A stretch of DNA of 37,925 bases, from positions 1 to 37,925 of the forward strand of contig JABITN010000104.1 of assembly GCA_018700525.1 (NCBI GenBank), given 5' to 3'. Shown here in pieces: positions 1 to 36,680 of this stretch (within the stretch, counting starts at the first letter, position 1; each line of letters starts with the position of its first letter). The notes under the pieces were generated by a model that was not told the origin of the DNA, made no database searches, and saw only the letters and a list, made by a program, of their open reading frames with translations. This stretch comes from Opitutales bacterium. Its GTDB lineage: Bacteria; Verrucomicrobiota; Verrucomicrobiia; Opitutales; Opitutaceae. Made by a program: the position numbers and the translations under genes.

Positions 1-1
1 A

Positions 2-382
2 ATGGTCGAATGGGCTCAGGCGACAATCGAATCGAAATACGTTTTCCTTCTCGCATTGAATGGAGCGCTGATTCTGGTCGGCTGTTTGATGGACATTTTC
101 TCGGCGATAATCGTGATTGTTCCGTTGATCGTACCTTTGGGGGTTGTATTTGGAATTCATCCGGTTCACCTCGGAATCATTTTTCTGGCGAATTTGCAGT
201 TGGGATATCTGACCCCGCCGATCGGTATGAATTTGTTCCTCGCTTCCTACCGATTCGGTAAGCCGATGTCGGAAGTGATTAGGGCTTCGTTTCCGTTGTT
301 GATCGTATTCGCAATTGGGGTATTGTTGATTACTTACGTCCCGTTTTTGACGACATGGCTGCCGAATCTGCTTCAGCAATAG
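2..382 (+). CDS. dctM: TRAP transporter large permease (DctM-type), C-terminal part
   Basis: This is the last ~126 residues of the large membrane subunit of a tripartite ATP-independent periplasmic (TRAP) transporter, which imports organic acids or similar solutes using a sodium or proton gradient. The fragment has three or four hydrophobic segments and the family's conserved C-terminal signature, here LGYLTPPIGMNLFLASYRF, followed by a final membrane helix (FPLLIVFAIGVLLITYV). The gene is cut by the window edge: a full DctM is about 430 residues, so the ATG at base 2 is not the real start. The small permease and the periplasmic binding protein would be expected upstream, outside the window. 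rsmE starts only 4 bases after its stop, so the two may be co-transcribed. The substrate cannot be inferred. Confidence 0.9.
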   Translation: MVEWAQATIESKYVFLLALNGALILVGCLMDIFSAIIVIVPLIVPLGVVFGIHPVHLGIIFLANLQLGYLTPPIGMNLFLASYRFGKPMSEVIRASFPLLIVFAIGVLLITYVPFLTTWLPNLLQQ

Positions 383-386
383 CGCC

Positions 387-1088
387 ATGAATATTGTTCT
401 CTTCGAGTCGGATGAAATAGGCCAGCCACTGGTGCTTTCAGATGAGCGGGCAAAGCATATCCTAGGCGTTTTAGGTCGCCAGAAAAGCGATACGTTCGAT
501 GCTGGCGTGATCGATGGAAAACGAGGCAAAGCGACAGTGGATTCGATCGGAACCGAGTCGATTAGTCTTAGCTTCGACCTGCAGCATGAAGAGCCTTCTT
601 TGTATCCGATTGATTTGATTGTGGGATTGTCGCGCCCGCAGACAAACCGAAAGATTTTGCAAGAGGCCACGTCGATGGGAGTACGGAGTCTGTCGTTCGT
701 CACCACGGAGCGAGGCGAAGCGTCATATGCGACTTCGAAGCTTTGGACTACCAGAGAATGGCGTCGTCATGTAGTGGCTGGCGTCGTACAGGCGTTTACA
801 ACGCGAATGCCGCAGGTATCCTTTGGAATCAGTTTGAAAGTTGCACTAGAGGCGAAGGCGAATGCCGAAGTTAAAATAGCTCTAGATAATTACGAAGCTG
901 ATTTGACTTTAAGCGAGGTCGATCGTGGAAGCGACTCAATTGCCTTGGCTTTGGGGTCGGAGCGCGGTTGGAGCGGAGCGGAGCGCGAGATGTTGCGAGA
1001 GCATCATTTTCAGTTGGCCCATCTCGGTCCGCGTCCTCTTCGCACGGAAACGGCAGTCGTTGCGGGAATCGCGGTGCTGCTGAGATAG
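387..1088 (+). CDS. rsmE: 16S rRNA (uracil1498-N3)-methyltransferase RsmE
   Basis: RsmE methylates N3 of U1498 in 16S rRNA using S-adenosylmethionine; it is a SPOUT-class, trefoil-knot enzyme acting on the assembled 30S subunit. At 233 residues the length is typical. The N-terminal part (about 1-70) matches the PUA-like RNA-binding domain, and the C-terminal part carries the SAM-binding knot motifs: ALALGSERGWSGAEREM at about 187-203 and the terminal LGPRPLRTETAVVAGIAVLL. The ATG lies 4 bases downstream of the TRAP permease stop, and no other start fits better. It converges on rsmD, so two 16S rRNA methyltransferase genes face each other across a 292-base gap, although their targets and folds differ. 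Confidence 0.95.
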   Translation: MNIVLFESDEIGQPLVLSDERAKHILGVLGRQKSDTFDAGVIDGKRGKATVDSIGTESISLSFDLQHEEPSLYPIDLIVGLSRPQTNRKILQEATSMGVRSLSFVTTERGEASYATSKLWTTREWRRHVVAGVVQAFTTRMPQVSFGISLKVALEAKANAEVKIALDNYEADLTLSEVDRGSDSIALALGSERGWSGAEREMLREHHFQLAHLGPRPLRTETAVVAGIAVLLR

Positions 1089-1140
1089 TTCCGCCGTTTC
1101 AATTAGGAGTGTAGGCTCGCAAGAAGGCCACGGATTGTTC

Positions 1141-1284
1141 GAACCTATTGGCCCGAAGGGGCACCTATTTGTTTCGCAGAAACAACAAGCGAAGCGTTGT
1201 TAAAAATCGAATCGGTTGAAGTGTTTCAACAACGGTCCCGCTGGGCTAGACCTTGTGTCCCCGCTGCGCGAGGCTAATAGGTTC
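1141..1284. repeat. dispersed MITE/REP-like element, copy 1
   Basis: A 144-base element lies in the tail-to-tail gap between rsmE and rsmD. Its ends are inverted repeats: GAACCTATTGGCC at the left against the reverse complement of GGCTAATAGGTTC at the right, with one mismatch. A diverged copy in the same orientation lies at 34506-34645; the two share GAAACAACAAGC, ATCG-ATTCGGTT and CGGTCCC blocks in the same order. Inside are smaller palindromes, including GTTGAAGTGTTTCAAC and a stem AACAAC...GTTGTT. It has no open reading frame. Size, ITRs and dispersion fit a miniature non-autonomous transposon or large REP-type element; the mobilising enzyme is not in the window. Confidence 0.7.
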
Positions 1285-19632: not shown

Positions 19633-20085
19633 TTTGGTTTCCATTGATTGGGTAGTGTTGTCGTCCCGATGGAAGAGAAGGGTTCTGTTAGCCGAGGATT
19701 AAGGAATGCGTAAGGCAATGTTTACGTACTGCGGTAGGTATTTGATTGCTGGACTGCTGGGGCTTTTCGAGGATGTGATCGTCGACAAGCTCGATCTCGT
19801 TTTGAGTCGGTGATTGAGGGCTTTGGGGGGCGCGGGTTTGTCCTTCAGACTGGTTTCCCGCGATCAATGCGATCCGTGGAAAAGGGTTCTGTGAATTGTT
19901 CGGTGGATAATTCTATCAGGTAAGTTATTGATTAACAATTTTTTACGAATTCTGTTTGGGTTTTGAATTTTCTTTCTAGACAGAAGAGGCGTTTGGTGTA
20001 GTGTGCCGCTCTCTAATCGTGGATCCAGGGAGAGCCTTGTATCGATTATTCGGTTAGATAGTAATAGTAAAAAAATAATACACAC
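19633..20085 (+). other. gap before the cold-shock gene; leader and weak coding-like fragments
   Basis: The first part carries short coding-like pieces in several frames, for example a 35-codon frame at 19706-19813 and one starting at ATG 19574 in the frame opposite to the dipeptidase end; none could be assigned to a family. The last ~170 bases are AT-rich and should contain the cold-shock gene's promoter and 5' leader. I could not settle on a -35/-10 pair. No Shine-Dalgarno lies in the bases just before the ATG (the sequence is A-rich, TAGTAAAAAAATAATACACAC). Confidence 0.45.
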
Positions 20086-20280
20086 ATGGCAAAAGGAACA
20101 GTAAAGTGGTTTGATTCAGAAAAGGGCTACGGTTTCATTCAACAGAGTGAAGGCGGCGACGATCTTTTCGTGCATCACACCGAAACAGATGGGTACGCCC
20201 TAAATGAAGGCGACACTGTCGATTTCGAGATTGGCGAAGGTCGTAAAGGGCCTTGCGCAACGAATGTAAAGAAGAGCTAG
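20086..20280 (+). CDS. cold-shock domain protein (CspA family)
   Basis: A 64-residue single-stranded nucleic-acid-binding protein of the CspA family, an RNA chaperone with one OB-fold. RNP1 is KGYGFIQ (13-19) and RNP2 is LFVHH (27-31); the N-terminus MAKGTVKWFD is the canonical start. It differs slightly from E. coli CspA after RNP2, with HHTETDG where FSAI is common. The gene stands alone: a broken dipeptidase lies upstream, and a strong intrinsic terminator 79 bases downstream closes the transcript. The A/T-rich leader without a Shine-Dalgarno could support temperature-dependent translation, as with other csp genes, but no defined cold-box motif was found. Confidence 0.95.
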   Translation: MAKGTVKWFDSEKGYGFIQQSEGGDDLFVHHTETDGYALNEGDTVDFEIGEGRKGPCATNVKKS

Positions 20281-20358
20281 CAGTCCATCTCGGACCACTT
20301 GACTTGCAGAGGTTTTATCCGCAAGGAGAAAAACGTCTGCTATTTACTTTCAAAAACC

Positions 20359-20386
20359 AAAAGGAGAAGCTTCGGCTTCTCCTTTT
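20359..20386 (+). terminator. Rho-independent terminator of the cold-shock gene
   Basis: A perfect 12-bp stem AAAAGGAGAAGC / GCTTCTCCTTTT closes on a TTCG tetraloop (20371-20374) and runs into a short T tract. This is the clearest intrinsic terminator in the window. It lies 79 bases after the cold-shock stop codon and about 90 bases before the amidase, so the two genes should be separate transcripts. Confidence 0.9.
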
Positions 20387-20474
20387 TCGTATCTGGATGG
20401 ATCGCACGGAAGTCGTGAAAGGGTTCGGAAGGAGTTGAATTGCTTCCGATTGGCGTCGGCGATTCTATATAGAA

Positions 20475-32659: not shown

Positions 32660-33343
32660 ATGAAGCAACTTTTGGGATGGGCGTTGAGCCTGTTGTTTGC
32701 CGTGACTGCGGTTGGGGGCGGTTTCGTGCTATCGAAGCCAGGGAAGCTGCTCATGAAAGAGAATTTTGATGGGGCGGATTTACCTGAGTTATTTACTGTA
32801 GGGGTAGGTGATTGGGCGATTGTCGACCATACGATCCGAGGTCGTCAGCAGGCGGCGGATAAACACACGGCTTTTCGCAAGATCTATTTGGATCACCAAG
32901 ATGTGATTTACCAATTCGATATGAAAATCGAAGGCGAAGCATTTTCGCAGATTTTGATTAATTACGATCTATCGCACATTGCTAAATGCGTTACTCGAGT
33001 AGATTCGATTAGCGTGTTTAAAGTATACGAAGGCGGGAAGCGTAAGCAGATGGCCAAGGAAGGGCGCGATCCAGGAAAGGATCCGATGAATGGCAAATGG
33101 GACGAGAAGACTTTTGCGATGGATACGGGTGCAGTGAATCTCAAAAAGGGCGAATGGTATCGAGTCACGATCGAGATGATCGGAGATCGGCTAGCGATGG
33201 AGGTAGATGGTGTCCGCGTGGAGGGAACGCATATCGGTATCACTGAAAAGAAGACCAACTATGGTTTTCAAGCCGGAGGGATAGAGGGCTATGTTTACTA
33301 CGACAACATTCGTGTCTGGGAAGCGTTGCCTTTGAGGCGATAG
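32660..33343 (+). CDS. secreted DUF1080/LamG-like protein
   Basis: A 227-residue exported protein (signal peptide about 1-21, LGWALSLLFAVTAVGG). The mature part is a jelly-roll β-sandwich of the concanavalin/DUF1080 type: KENFDGADLPELFTVGVGDW at the start, HQDVIYQFDMKIEGEAF in the middle, KKGEWYRVTIEMIGDRLAME, then GFQAGGIEGYVYYDNIRVWE at the end. The W-x-[VI]-x-D-x-x-[IL]-x-[GC] strand and the final Y-[YV]-D-N-[IV]-R-[VI]-W are typical of these domains. The start at 32660 is chosen for the AGGAG spacing. It lies between an aldolase remnant and a sugar ABC ATPase (20 bases downstream), suggesting sugar-polymer handling, but no catalytic residues can be pinned. Confidence 0.8.
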   Translation: MKQLLGWALSLLFAVTAVGGGFVLSKPGKLLMKENFDGADLPELFTVGVGDWAIVDHTIRGRQQAADKHTAFRKIYLDHQDVIYQFDMKIEGEAFSQILINYDLSHIAKCVTRVDSISVFKVYEGGKRKQMAKEGRDPGKDPMNGKWDEKTFAMDTGAVNLKKGEWYRVTIEMIGDRLAMEVDGVRVEGTHIGITEKKTNYGFQAGGIEGYVYYDNIRVWEALPLRR

Positions 33344-33363: not shown

Positions 33364-34491
33364 ATGGCGCAGGTTGTTCTAAATCAGTTAGAGAAAATTT
33401 ATGCGGGCTCACGAAAGGGCTCGGATTTTCGGGCGGTCAAAAAGATCGACCTAACCGTCGAGGACAAGGAGTTCATGGTTTTGGTGGGCCCTTCGGGTTG
33501 TGGAAAATCAACTACGCTACGCATGATCGCGGGTTTGGAAGAGATTACCGATGGAACGATTTCTATCGATGATCAGCTGGTAAATGATGTGGCTCCGAAG
33601 GATCGCGATATAGCGATGGTGTTTCAGAGTTACGCTCTCTATCCCCATATGACCGTGTTCGAGAACATGGCCTTTGGCTTGAAGTTACGTAAGTATCCAA
33701 AGGAGGAGATCGAGCGTCGTGTAAATGAGGCGGCTCAGGTACTGGGTTTGGAAACGATGCTTCAGCGTAAGCCGAAGGCGCTTTCCGGAGGGCAGCGCCA
33801 GCGCGTCGCAGTTGGTCGAGCAATTGTTCGTCAGCCAAAGGTGTTTTTGTTCGACGAACCGCTTTCGAATCTCGACGCGAAGATGCGCGTTTCTATGCGG
33901 GCGGAGATATCCAAACTGCATGAGCGTTTGCAAGCGACCATGATTTACGTTACCCACGATCAAGTGGAAGCGATGACGATGGGCGATCGCATATGCGTGA
34001 TGAATGATGGCGAGATCATGCAAATCGACGAACCGCTCAATATCTACAATCGTCCGGCTAACTTGTTTGTCGCGAGCTTCATCGGTAGCCCAGCAATGAA
34101 TCTCTTCAAGGGAGCAACCGTATTCAAAGAGGGAGGGCCCGTTTTCGAAGAGACGAATGAAACTGGGAATGGATTCTCGATTCCATTGGATGGAGATTTG
34201 GGAGAAAAAGTGAAGAATCTCGACGGCAAGGCGGTCGTATTAGGTATCCGGCCTGAACATACTAGGATGCTAGAATCCGAATCGGAACCCACGGTAGCTG
34301 TCGTAACGGCAAAAATCGAACTAAGCGAACCAATGGGATCGGAGACGCTCGTCTACTTGGATACAGGAGCTAATAGCTTTATCGTTAAGGAAAGGGGTCA
34401 CGTAAAACTATCCAACGACCTATACGTAAGCGTCGCGATCGATCCCGAGAAGGTTCATCTATTCGATCGGGCGACCGGCGAGGCAATTTGA
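33364..34491 (+). CDS. ugpC: sugar ABC transporter ATP-binding protein (UgpC/MsmX type)
   Basis: A 375-residue CUT1-type ATPase that powers import of sugars or glycerol phosphates. Walker A GPSGCGKST is at 42-50, the signature LSGGQRQRVAVGRAI at about 140-154, Walker B VFLFDEPLSNLD at about 160-171, with H-loop YVTHDQ. The C-terminal ~130 residues form a TOBE-type regulatory domain (from IGSPAMNLF to RPEHTRM and VHLFDRATGEAI). It stands alone: neither permease nor binding-protein genes flank it, which fits a shared 'MsmX-like' ATPase serving several transporters, a known arrangement in Gram-positives and some Verrucomicrobia. It may share a transcript with the DUF1080-like gene 20 bases upstream. 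Confidence 0.92.
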   Translation: MAQVVLNQLEKIYAGSRKGSDFRAVKKIDLTVEDKEFMVLVGPSGCGKSTTLRMIAGLEEITDGTISIDDQLVNDVAPKDRDIAMVFQSYALYPHMTVFENMAFGLKLRKYPKEEIERRVNEAAQVLGLETMLQRKPKALSGGQRQRVAVGRAIVRQPKVFLFDEPLSNLDAKMRVSMRAEISKLHERLQATMIYVTHDQVEAMTMGDRICVMNDGEIMQIDEPLNIYNRPANLFVASFIGSPAMNLFKGATVFKEGGPVFEETNETGNGFSIPLDGDLGEKVKNLDGKAVVLGIRPEHTRMLESESEPTVAVVTAKIELSEPMGSETLVYLDTGANSFIVKERGHVKLSNDLYVSVAIDPEKVHLFDRATGEAI

Positions 34492-34505
34492 GGTTTATGG
34501 GTAAT

Positions 34506-34645
34506 ACTTATTGTCCTCGTGAAGCGGGGACACCTATTTGATTCGGAGAAACAACAAGCAAAGCATCGTTAGAAATCGATTCGGTTAAGGGATATTGAAC
34601 AGCGGTCCCCCGTAGCGGGCCTATCAAGTTGAGCCTAATCAATTG
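34506..34645. repeat. dispersed MITE/REP-like element, copy 2
   Basis: A diverged copy of the element at 1141-1284, in the same orientation and of nearly the same length (about 140 bases). Shared blocks in order: ACCTATTTG, AGAAACAACAAGC, GTTA-AAATCGA-TCGGTT, GGTCCC and GAG-CTAAT. Its left arm CCTCGTGAAGCGGGGACAC is the inverted form of copy 1's right arm GTGTCCCCGCTGCGCGAGG, with two mismatches, which confirms the terminal inverted repeats of the consensus element. Like copy 1 it lies in a tail-to-tail gap, here between the UgpC-type gene and the dehydratase. Confidence 0.7.
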
Positions 34646-34669
34646 CAATCATTGTAGGTCCCACGCCGG

Positions 34670-34709
34670 AGTCTCGACGTAGCTACGACGCAATGCTGCG
34701 TGGATTTTG
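34670..34709. repeat. short repeat with GTAGCTAC core, copy A
   Basis: This 40-base block, centred on the palindrome CGTAGCTACG (34678-34687) and ending GCTGCGTGGATTTTG, resembles the block at 37753-37792. Both lie just beyond a minus-strand stop codon in a convergent gap. Similarity is good but not perfect, so the relation needs an alignment. Confidence 0.4.
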
Positions 34710-34712
34710 TTA

Positions 34713-36680
34713 CTAGGAAGTTTCGTTTTGTTCTGCTTGGAGACCTTTTTCGATGAGTTCGGCGATCCGGTCGGCATCGTAGATGCAACCGGCCCAAGAT
34801 CCGCCGCTGGCGTTTTGAAGAGTTGCCCAGAGACGGGTGTCGGTCGGTACGTTCGAGTCGGCTTTTAAATTGGGGTGACGCGATCGTTTGTTAAACGCGG
34901 CGTCGTCCTCGGTTATTACGTCTACCGAACCGTCCAGGTTTCGAGTATCGATTACGATTTGAATGGTATCGCCATCGCGGATACGAGCGATTGGTCCATC
35001 GGCCCAGGCTTCGGGGCTGATGTGTCCGATACAGGCTCCTGTAGATACGCCGGAGAATCGACCGTCTGTAATCAAAGCGATTTGTTCGCCGCCTTTCATG
35101 TGCTTGAGGGCGGATGTGATTTGGTAGGTCTCGGGCATTCCGCAACCGGGGCCGATGCCCATCAGGACGAGCGTATCGCCTGGTTTGACGGTTCCGGCTT
35201 TAATGGCGTTGATGGCATCTTTTTCCGAGGTCATTACGCATGCGGGACCTTCGTGTCGGTAGAAGCCGTCGTCGCCGATTCTATCTGGCGAGATAGCTGT
35301 GCTCTTTACCAAGGCTCCTTCGGGGGCGAGATTGCCTTGGAGGAAGGTGACGGTGCTGGAGAGTCCGCGTTCGCGAGCTTGTTCGGGCGACATGATGACT
35401 TCGTCTGGATCTATGCCGTCGAGTTGACGTAGCTTCTCTTTGAGGTGCTGACGTCGTTCGGAGTTTTCCCACCAATCAAGGTTTTCGCCCAGCGTGCGAC
35501 CGGTTACAGTGAGCGCATCGAGTTTGAGTAATCCAAGCTTTCTTAGGTGGAGCATGACTTCAGGAGCGCCGCCTGCCAGAAAGACTTGAACGGTCGCGAA
35601 GTGGCGTGGCCCGTTGGGAAGCGAATCGACGATCCGAGGAACCATGCGATTGATGCGTGTCCAATCTTCGACAGTCGGTTGACTTAGTCCCGCTTCATGG
35701 GCGATTGCGGGGATGTGTAATACGAGATTCGTCGAGCCGCCGATTGCTGCATGTACGACCATGGCATTGTGGATGGAGTCGTCGGTGAGGATGTCGCTGG
35801 TTTTAAGATTGGCTGCTTCGAGTCCGATGAGTGCCTGGGCGGAGCGGCGAGCCATATCCTTCCAGATGGGAGCTCCGCTCGGGGAAAGCGCTGCGTGCGG
35901 AAGGGTTAGCCCGAGAGCTTCGGCGATCACTTGGCTAGTCGCAGCGGTTCCCATGAATTGGCAACCTCCGCCAGGAGTGCCGCACGCTTTGCAGCCCATT
36001 TCGGCGGCGTATTCGAGTTCGATTTCGTCCCGAGCGAAACGCGTGGCGAGCGTTTGGACTTTCCCGGCGTCTTCGCCTTCCTCAGCTAGGAGCGTGACTC
36101 CTCCGGGAACGAGTATAGTCGGCAAATCGGGCGAGCCTGCTAGAGCCATTAGCATAGCAGGTAGGCCTTTGTCGCAAGTGGCGATTCCCAGTACCCCGCG
36201 GCGTGTTGGAAGCGAGCGTATCTGTCGCCTGAACACAATAGCAGCATCATTGCGGTAGGGTAGGCTATCAAGCATACCTACGGTGCCGTTGGTGCGCCCG
36301 TCGCAGGGATCGCTGCAATAGGCGGCAAAGGGAATGGTGCCGCTTTCGGAAAATGAGCGAGCGGCCTCTTCAACGAGTAGACCGATCTCCCAATGACCGG
36401 TGTGATAACCGAGTGCGATTGGCGAGCCATCGGGTGCTCGGAGTCCACCCTGAGTACTGAGAATGAGAAACTGTTTGCCGAGTAGGAGTTTTGGGTCCCA
36501 ACCCATGCCAGCGTTTTGAGTCCACCCAAAAAGGTCGCCGCTGGCCATGCCGCGCAATTGATCGGCTTGCAGCGGTAACGTACCTGAAGGACCCGCTGCG
36601 TGTGTGTTGAGCGTGTAGAGATTGTCGTCTGAAAAATCGAGCAGTTCGTTGAGAGAGGGCATGGCTCTATCCGATTTCAT
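34713..36680 (-). CDS. yjhG: YjhG/YagF-type D-xylonate dehydratase (IlvD/EDD family)
   Basis: A 655-residue Fe-S dehydratase, the exact size of E. coli YjhG and YagF, which dehydrate D-xylonate to 2-keto-3-deoxy-D-xylonate. The match runs end to end: THAAGPSGTLPLQADQL, GDLFGWTQNAGMGW, SDPCDGRTNGTVGMLDSLPY, RSLPTRRGVLGIATCDKGLP, MGCKACGTPGGGCQFMG, ATIHNAMVVHAAIGGSTNL-like NAMVVHAAIGGSTNLVLHIP, and ARFSGVSTGACIGH-like GRFSGVSTGACIGHISPEAW. Cysteines C126, C169 and C240 are placed as cluster ligands in the family. It is transcribed away from a divergent esterase. The matching aldolase is not nearby in intact form; an HpcH/HpaI-type remnant lies 2 kb away. Other aldonate substrates cannot be excluded. 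Confidence 0.92.
   Translation of the reverse strand: MKSDRAMPSLNELLDFSDDNLYTLNTHAAGPSGTLPLQADQLRGMASGDLFGWTQNAGMGWDPKLLLGKQFLILSTQGGLRAPDGSPIALGYHTGHWEIGLLVEEAARSFSESGTIPFAAYCSDPCDGRTNGTVGMLDSLPYRNDAAIVFRRQIRSLPTRRGVLGIATCDKGLPAMLMALAGSPDLPTILVPGGVTLLAEEGEDAGKVQTLATRFARDEIELEYAAEMGCKACGTPGGGCQFMGTAATSQVIAEALGLTLPHAALSPSGAPIWKDMARRSAQALIGLEAANLKTSDILTDDSIHNAMVVHAAIGGSTNLVLHIPAIAHEAGLSQPTVEDWTRINRMVPRIVDSLPNGPRHFATVQVFLAGGAPEVMLHLRKLGLLKLDALTVTGRTLGENLDWWENSERRQHLKEKLRQLDGIDPDEVIMSPEQARERGLSSTVTFLQGNLAPEGALVKSTAISPDRIGDDGFYRHEGPACVMTSEKDAINAIKAGTVKPGDTLVLMGIGPGCGMPETYQITSALKHMKGGEQIALITDGRFSGVSTGACIGHISPEAWADGPIARIRDGDTIQIVIDTRNLDGSVDVITEDDAAFNKRSRHPNLKADSNVPTDTRLWATLQNASGGSWAGCIYDADRIAELIEKGLQAEQNETS

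Follow-up and report, generated by a model that had tools for sequence, protein, structure and literature searches.

The window, a 37,925-nt stretch of DNA that makes up the whole of contig C145 in a 4.80-Mb draft genome of 268 contigs from an Opitutales bacterium, carries two copies of a short hairpin-bearing repeat. Database matches place both between convergent genes, as an earlier note made from the letters alone had described. Copy 1 lies between a gene matching RsmE (+, 387–1088) and a gene matching RsmD (−, 1381–1938), and copy 2 between genes for a UgpC/MalK-type ABC ATPase (+, 33364–34491) and a YjhG/YagF-type dehydratase (−, 34713–36680). Alignment places the two copies where the note had put them and recovers the ordered blocks common to both.

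Copy 1 (1141–1305) is an inverted pair of half-elements with the ends GAACCTATT and AAAGGTTT, delimited by blastn and by matches to R2, a covariance model built from 13 left halves. Its left half-element (1141–1203, +; R2, 89.1 bits) comprises, all on the forward strand, hairpin A GGCCCGAAGGGGC (1150–1162, triloop GAA), the conserved spacer ACCTATTT (1163–1170), hairpin B GTTTCGCAGAAAC (1171–1183, triloop GCA) and hairpin C AACAAGCGAAGCGTTGTT (1184–1201, triloop GAA). A linker (1204–1225) leads to the inverted right half-element (1226–1305, −), a weak R2 match of 18.8 bits in which hairpins C′ (1234–1252), B′ (1257–1274) and A′ (1283–1297), likewise on the reverse strand, were assigned by eye. 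Terminal inverted repeats had been proposed, and copy 1 does carry a 13-nt end repeat, GAACCTATTGGCC/GGCTAATAGGTTC, that is 92% complementary. The proposed extent of 1141–1284 is correct at its start and too short at its end; copy 1 reaches about 1305, because its right side continues with a third hairpin and another AGGTTT end.

In copy 2, the left half-element (34504–34572, +; R2, 67.2 bits) contains hairpin A GTCCTCGTGAAGCGGGGAC (34513–34531), hairpin B GATTCGGAGAAAC (34540–34552) and hairpin C AACAAGCAAAGCATCGTT (34553–34570), all on the forward strand. Hairpin A of this copy resembles hairpin B′ of copy 1, and by eye 17 of 19 bases of the arm CCTCGTGAAGCGGGGACAC match copy 1's right arm read in inverse, in agreement with the note. 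The right half (34596–34650, −) is decayed; it gives no match to R2 and was recognized by eye from a remnant hairpin, GGTCCCCCGTAGCGGGCC at 34604–34621, and a CCTAATCAA end. A different dispersed repeat (CCCACGCCGGAGTCTCGACGTAGCTACGACGCAATGCTGCGTGG…, 34660–34709) adjoins copy 2, with at least 23 occurrences in the congeneric genome G006 and at least four elsewhere in the source genome. In another relative (G003; L248, G003:C383), sequence matching window positions 1–1090, with the gene on the left side of copy 1, runs on into a match to positions 19758–20411, so gene order breaks off at the gap that holds copy 1.

The family is built from a half-element of about 63 nt, the smallest unit to recur, which has the layout RAACCYATT–hairpin A–ACCYATTT–hairpin B–hairpin C–TAA and occurs alone or as an inverted pair. 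Within it, the spacer ACCYATTT is conserved, and hairpin C follows the consensus AACWAGCG…CGWTGTT before the closing TAA. Our alignment holds 186 rows, consisting of the best 150 of 161 matches from one search (set A5) and all 36 matches from another (set A6); 152 rows could be parsed through their spacers, with at most two changes allowed per spacer, and 34 were left out. Among the parsed halves, hairpin A is 13 nt long in 83 of 152 and reaches up to 42 nt in four, while hairpin B is 13 nt long in 90 of 152. When halves are paired, their 3′ ends face the centre and the outer ends read RAACCYATT…AATRGGTTY; across 176 outer flanks the end consensus is TC followed by RAACCYATT, with its inverse on pairs.

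The earlier note took an inverted unit of 140 bp as the element. Among 142 places drawn from the matches listed, 42 have that ‘+−’ arrangement, whereas 92 show one half only at the model threshold, 7 are ‘−+’ and 1 is ‘++’. Because the model was built from left halves and right halves score low, pairs are under-counted and singles over-counted in this tally. An AATRGGT-like word (at most one change) lies 25–150 nt downstream of 48 of 87 testable singles, while two control stretches have it for 23 and 27 of the 87, and the exact word occurs 9 times, against 2 and 5. Part of the apparent single halves may thus hide a weak right end. The pair as the sole unit is rejected or at least weakened by the 92 single places, some of which may conceal a right half.

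The repeat is dispersed, as the note had supposed, and the source genome holds many more than the two copies whose sole presence would have spoken against that idea. The resemblance exceeds what chance would give: a blastn search with copy 1 returns 33 matches there at E ≤ 10, of which 16, including copy 1 itself, fall at E ≤ 5e-5. R2, whose E-values (like those of the later model R3) are rough, finds 31 half-element matches at E ≤ 1 and 25 places at E ≤ 0.1; one of these, the match inside a gene at 32881–32948, reaches only E = 0.087 and is probably due to chance. A search of 57 relatives' genomes at E ≤ 0.001 gives matches in 12 genomes: all 11 genomes of the genus, the source included, with 2–30 matches each, none of 26 others in the family, and 1 of 20 others in the order. 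With stricter filters, R3 is positive in 10 of 372 genomes of the order, and all of its matches above 37 bits fall within the genus. Two sites look, by eye, common to several species (L080/L082/L094/L096 and L084/L085/L091).

Beyond the genus, nine weak stretches from other genera and families (G039, G043, G067, G123, G367 and G375; 30–36 bits) were inspected by eye. In most, a spacer precedes each of two GNA hairpins and a form of hairpin C follows, with quite different stems, as in the G123 example AATCCTGTT-CGCGAAGCG-ATCCTGTT-CCGGCGCAGCCGG-ATCAAGCGAAGCGTTGTTAA; hairpin A is absent from one G043 stretch (L319) and hairpin C from the G367 stretch. Given their low scores, we treat these stretches as probable relatives of the half-element family. 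Searching a genome collection described as covering 84,980 species for exact occurrences of the hairpin C consensus yields 25 stretches, from Opitutales, Opitutaceae and Opitutia MAGs, one Verrucomicrobia MAG (AV11) and one Vibrio; the Vibrio and AV11 matches are dismissed as chance, since by eye the other hairpins are absent. In one set of stretches (L153–L176; jk18x7bins.13, 287ce), half-elements lie, by eye, amid other recurring short phrases such as ATCCGTGCTCATCCGTG and CTTTGTGCCTTTGTG.

The note recognized no described family, and we found none for the element. Rfam gives no match for the window at gathering scores or for the two copies at E ≤ 1, which rejects or at least weakens membership of a known RNA family. 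A plasmid or phage origin was set aside, as neither collection has a blastn match at E ≤ 0.01, and viral contigs hold no exact match to the hairpin C pattern. A literature search that covered few of the subscription journals found no published description of the half-element family.

Gene context was compiled from the 186 rows, to E 0.1, plus 12 of 13 further matches, giving 147 places and, with exact repeats removed, the 142 counted here; copies in relatives come from among the matches listed, and genes were called by a scoring of ours that was compared with database matches at four genes of the window. Of these places, 48 are convergent gaps, 62 tandem, 14 divergent and 17 contig edges. The one remaining place is called inside a gene and is the weak match with E = 0.087 noted above, so the scatter through coding sequence that the note had set against its proposal is not seen. 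In the source genome alone, the 25 places divide into 12 convergent, 8 tandem, 2 divergent, 2 at an edge and 1 inside a gene. A circular chromosome has as many convergent as divergent gaps. The excess of 48 over 14 is therefore significant (p = 8.7e-6), also with five orthologous copies dropped (43 versus 14, p = 7.7e-5). The tail-to-tail gaps of the note are thus favoured but not exclusive, with 62 of the 142 listed places in tandem gaps, where 41 of 62 copies lie nearer the upstream gene's stop. REPs are reported to favour the same gap types (PMC3733652).

This placement bears on a reading of the element as RNA, in which a 3′ untranslated structure ends or protects transcripts and the fold is kept because mRNAs carry it. 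The convergent bias and the closeness of tandem copies to the upstream stop both favour such a reading, as do a terminator-like site called over hairpin A of copy 2 (34512–34532) and a run of six T starting at 1303, six bases past hairpin A′ of copy 1. Against it, the terminator scan calls none inside copy 1, and the two copies lack Rfam matches. Single halves in tandem gaps lie 18 on the gene strand and 14 on the opposite strand (n = 32, p = 0.60); this absence of a strand preference speaks by itself for neither DNA nor RNA, but the GNA loops described below would reach the mRNA in one orientation only. A separate terminator-like hairpin of ordinary type, CTCGGCATTAAAAATGCCGAG, lies at 1353–1373, between rsmE and rsmD and outside copy 1.

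The main feature of the family is how its stems vary. In the 13 aligned left halves, both sides vary in 9 of 17 pairs, and covariation is 0.297, compared with 0.117 in shuffled alignments (0 of 500 as high) and at most 0.108 when slid; further pair types do not exceed shuffles (12 versus 10.8; 137 of 500). The structure used in this comparison was drawn from the same 13 sequences, and the pairing was therefore retested on model-found halves, using only the unpaired spacers to place the arms. With arms so placed, the arms of a hairpin A pair with each other at 4.22 of 5 positions (49 distinct sequences), against 3.02 between copies, and those of hairpin B at 4.35 of 5 (68 distinct), against 2.71, with 0 of 2000 shuffles as high in either case. 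For hairpin C, the variable positions of AACWAG and CGWTG hold bases that can pair in 99 of 116 halves with G–T counted, and in 82 without; the best of 5000 shuffles, G–T counted, gives 79. The alignment rows are related and the shuffles ignore kinship, but the number of distinct stems, which include GCCTC, GCTGC, GCTCC, GCGAC, GTTCC and others, makes common descent alone an unlikely source of the matched changes. The rule of variation is that stems vary if both arms vary together, while loop edges and spacers stay constant.

The inverted pairs also fold better than their shuffles as RNA (z −2.4 for copy 1 and −5.8 for a second copy, L017), which answers the folding check set by the note and counts for the RNA reading. 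As DNA, the same pairs fold with z of −2.4 and −5.0, equally far beyond shuffles, which counts against a specifically RNA fold. Stems that vary in matched pairs beside fixed loops suggest that what is kept as the repeat spreads is a fold, perhaps of single-stranded DNA.

Matched stems might also arise in the absence of selection on the fold, if template switching or the swapping of whole hairpins rewrites them. Template switching can perfect short inverted repeats, and hairpins look exchangeable between positions, as with hairpins A of copy 2 and B′ of copy 1; other hairpin units are also nested in loops. Neutral rewriting, however, gives no account of the kept G and A at the loop edges beside a free middle base, nor of the near-absence of TNC loops in the same reading. 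We consider it improbable.

The loops themselves are the second constant feature. GNA triloops occur in 36 of 49 distinct 13-nt hairpins A and 50 of 68 distinct hairpins B, with all four bases found at the middle position, and the antisense form TNC occurs in none and one, respectively. In hairpin C, where loops are counted per half rather than per distinct sequence, 49 of 53 three-base interiors (53 of 116 halves) are GNA. Control hairpins outside elements, taken as perfect 5-bp stems with 3-nt loops where the element stems included imperfect ones, show GNA in 31 of 353 and TNC in 37 of 353. Four-base loops are GNNA in 11 of 16 cases, of which 3 are of the RNA-type GNRA form, and TNCG in 0 of 16. 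Stable DNA hairpins are described in which a d(GNA) triloop is closed by a C–G pair; they form a family, and the contacts that close their loops are similar to those of RNA GNRA tetraloops (PMC5815330).

By analogy with that DNA family, the loop type leans toward a DNA fold. Loops of this DNA triloop type, together with the lack of a terminator inside copy 1, mean that a transcript-ending RNA is not favoured. The structured RNA ending two transcripts that the note had offered is thus possible, with the six T at 1303 and the site at hairpin A of copy 2 on its side and the loop type and terminator scan against it; we regard an RNA function more generally as unlikely, though with some weight.

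A DNA fold could also act in place. Under this alternative, C(GNA)G hairpins extruded by supercoiling would bind a chromosomal protein such as gyrase, a nucleoid protein or a terminus factor. The occurrence of copies in 11 of 11 genus genomes and the two sites apparently common to several species are in its favour, whereas the number of matches per genome ranges from 2 to 30 within one genus and the gaps differ between species. Convergent gaps are expected to be less negatively supercoiled, which also counts against it. A precedent for extrusion exists in phage N4, whose promoters need these loop edges and this closing pair if their hairpins are to extrude at physiological supercoiling (PMC4496689). 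On balance, a cruciform-bound protein seems distinctly unlikely as the main explanation.

The inverted ends RAACCYATT/AATRGGTTY, together with the possibility that some singles are decayed pairs, would suit a classical MITE in which a DDE transposase moves the inverted pair through its terminal repeats; these ends, however, occur as inverted repeats on pairs only, and 92 of the 142 listed places have one half at threshold. No direct repeat marks a target duplication at the ends of the 42 pairs, where the best excess over cross-pairs is 0.07. Absence of target duplication is the expectation for Y1-type and not for DDE-type movement. A classical MITE would also leave the matched changes inside three separate hairpins unexplained. 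We rejected this candidate, or at the least hold it weakened, for want of target duplication, and judge it very improbable.

Comparison of gaps between species gives a mixed picture of presence and absence. In G006, a different palindrome occupies the copy 1 gap in place of the element, and in G003 the copy 2 gap is without it; at a third site (L268), the element is present in G002 and G005 and absent from G010. R2 at E ≤ 1 finds nothing in the empty gaps (L239, L252, L283) and recovers the G005 copy at 25.8 bits. Neither an exact empty site nor an excision footprint was seen in these gaps, which are too diverged for one. The G006 gap matching copy 1 (L239:1340–1500, convergent) holds a long palindrome, GTAGCTCAGTGCTTTAGCC…GGCTAAAGCACTGAGCTACT. 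In the source genome, the 15 best other blastn matches are 72–96% identical to part of copy 1, so present-day activity is unsupported.

The note had proposed a search for a Y1/RAYT or DDE transposase with matching ends. Y1_Tnp genes occur in 8 of the 11 genus genomes. The three with no Y1_Tnp match (G005, G008, G010) have 2, 5 and 3 R2 matches, and the other eight have 6–30, a trend drawn from 11 related genomes, some incomplete, with kinship uncorrected. Among 30 Y1 loci, covering about 1.5 kb on each side where the contig allows, no intact Y1 gene lies beside an element, and the matching gene proposed by the note was thus not found there; in G007, one broken gene (L148) has an element nearby at E 2.2e-7, and one more locus has a match at E 0.54. 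The source genome does contain a gene for a REP-associated tyrosine transposase (L032:138–740, G000:C126; NF047646, 110.8 bits against a cut-off of 80), flanked by two copies of its own 33-nt repeat, the inverse of which carries GTAG. This locus is probably a REPtron whose sequence is unrelated to the half-element, and those different flanking repeats, with the outcome at the 30 Y1 loci, reject or at least weaken the idea that the element is the REP of the source genome's RAYT. Elsewhere in the same genome (L031:1501–1785, G000:C12), a Y1_Tnp match with an internal stop is what is left of an IS200-like gene.

Another small hairpin unit, YTGTCNCGNCGWAGC…GNGAAGNCGGA, has 43 occurrences, spread over 5 of the 11 genus genomes. 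By eye, this unit lies within the GNA loop of either hairpin B or hairpin C in L016, L019, L113, L185, L187 and L191, and seemingly also in the loops of another repeat, of an ATCCTGC type, in G006. For 27 copies of the small unit with flanks, and taking the best of 25 registers, the flanking arms pair at 3.04 of 6 positions, compared with 1.97 between copies; some of these copies were sampled because they lie inside a half-element, and the figure leans to that extent toward loop insertion, which it fits.

The half-element family is a dispersed hairpin repeat, nearest to the REPINs, with the unusual rule that loop edges and spacers are kept and stems are free. Like REPINs as described in PMC3116915, it is short and extragenic, can stand as an inverted doublet with a spacer (42 of the 142 listed places), is predicted to form a hairpin in single-stranded DNA, occurs as singles too, and shows compensatory changes in its paired region. 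It differs in that its halves are about 63 nt with three hairpins each, its stems vary while its spacers are kept, GTAG is lacking, and linkage to a RAYT is absent at the loci examined. The GTAG- and CGTC-tagged REPs, reported in O. terrae and R. baltica (PMC3733652), similarly lie mostly in tandem and convergent gaps, downstream of coding sequence, and are often inverted dimers. These REPs are palindromes of 20–40 bp with a tetranucleotide tag, whereas the half-element has three hairpins over 63 positions and other loops; a GTAG or CGTC foot tag is absent from the element ends (176 outer flanks) and from the spacers. The element may thus work like a REPIN, while with neither a GTAG/CGTC tag nor a single 20–40 bp palindrome it is not classed as a REP.

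Three other systems share part of this architecture. Firstly, Class 3 TnpA-Y1 genes from Planctomycetes, Acidobacteria and Proteobacteria are associated with atypical DNA secondary structures, sometimes in high copy; as described, those structures lie on either side of the Y1 gene and carry a CnGA foot (PMC6006769), whereas the element has the end consensus TC followed by RAACC and flanks no intact Y1 gene among the 30 loci. Secondly, the early-promoter hairpins of phage N4 are, like those of the element, small, with a C–G closing pair and loop edges of 5′ G and 3′ A, and are extruded by supercoiling; the N4 hairpin is a promoter and not a dispersed repeat, and the likeness drawn here is one of shape (PMC4496689). 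Finally, the repetitive hairpin-forming elements of sponge mitochondria are dispersed intergenic hairpins, including double and triple forms, in which stems are kept and loops vary, the reverse of the Opitutales element (PMC2800124).

Taken together, we infer, tentatively and at somewhat less than an even chance, that the half-element is a non-autonomous mobile repeat recognized as folded single-stranded DNA, in the manner of a REPIN. Its strand would fold when single-stranded, at a replication fork or through cruciform extrusion, and a trans-acting enzyme would recognize the C(GNA)G hairpins as a shape, with the spacers giving position. Selection at this recognition step would keep the fold, and would account for matched changes among copies scattered through one genome. 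Those copies would persist where they are least harmful, downstream of genes.

A broader view, which we put forward as unlikely but worth stating, is that of a mobile family coded by DNA shape across Opitutales families, in which fold, spacers and loop edges are inherited, stems are free, and GNA loops serve as landing sites for nesting hairpins. An enzyme recognizing C(GNA)G hairpins by their shape would, to our knowledge, belong to a kind not yet described. The usual definition of a dispersed hairpin repeat in bacteria rests on conserved sequence. The feature kept here is a fold, with a loop known as unusually stable in DNA. A kept fold makes the question of DNA or RNA directly testable for such repeats, and the many stems of this family offer a natural library for finding the enzyme.
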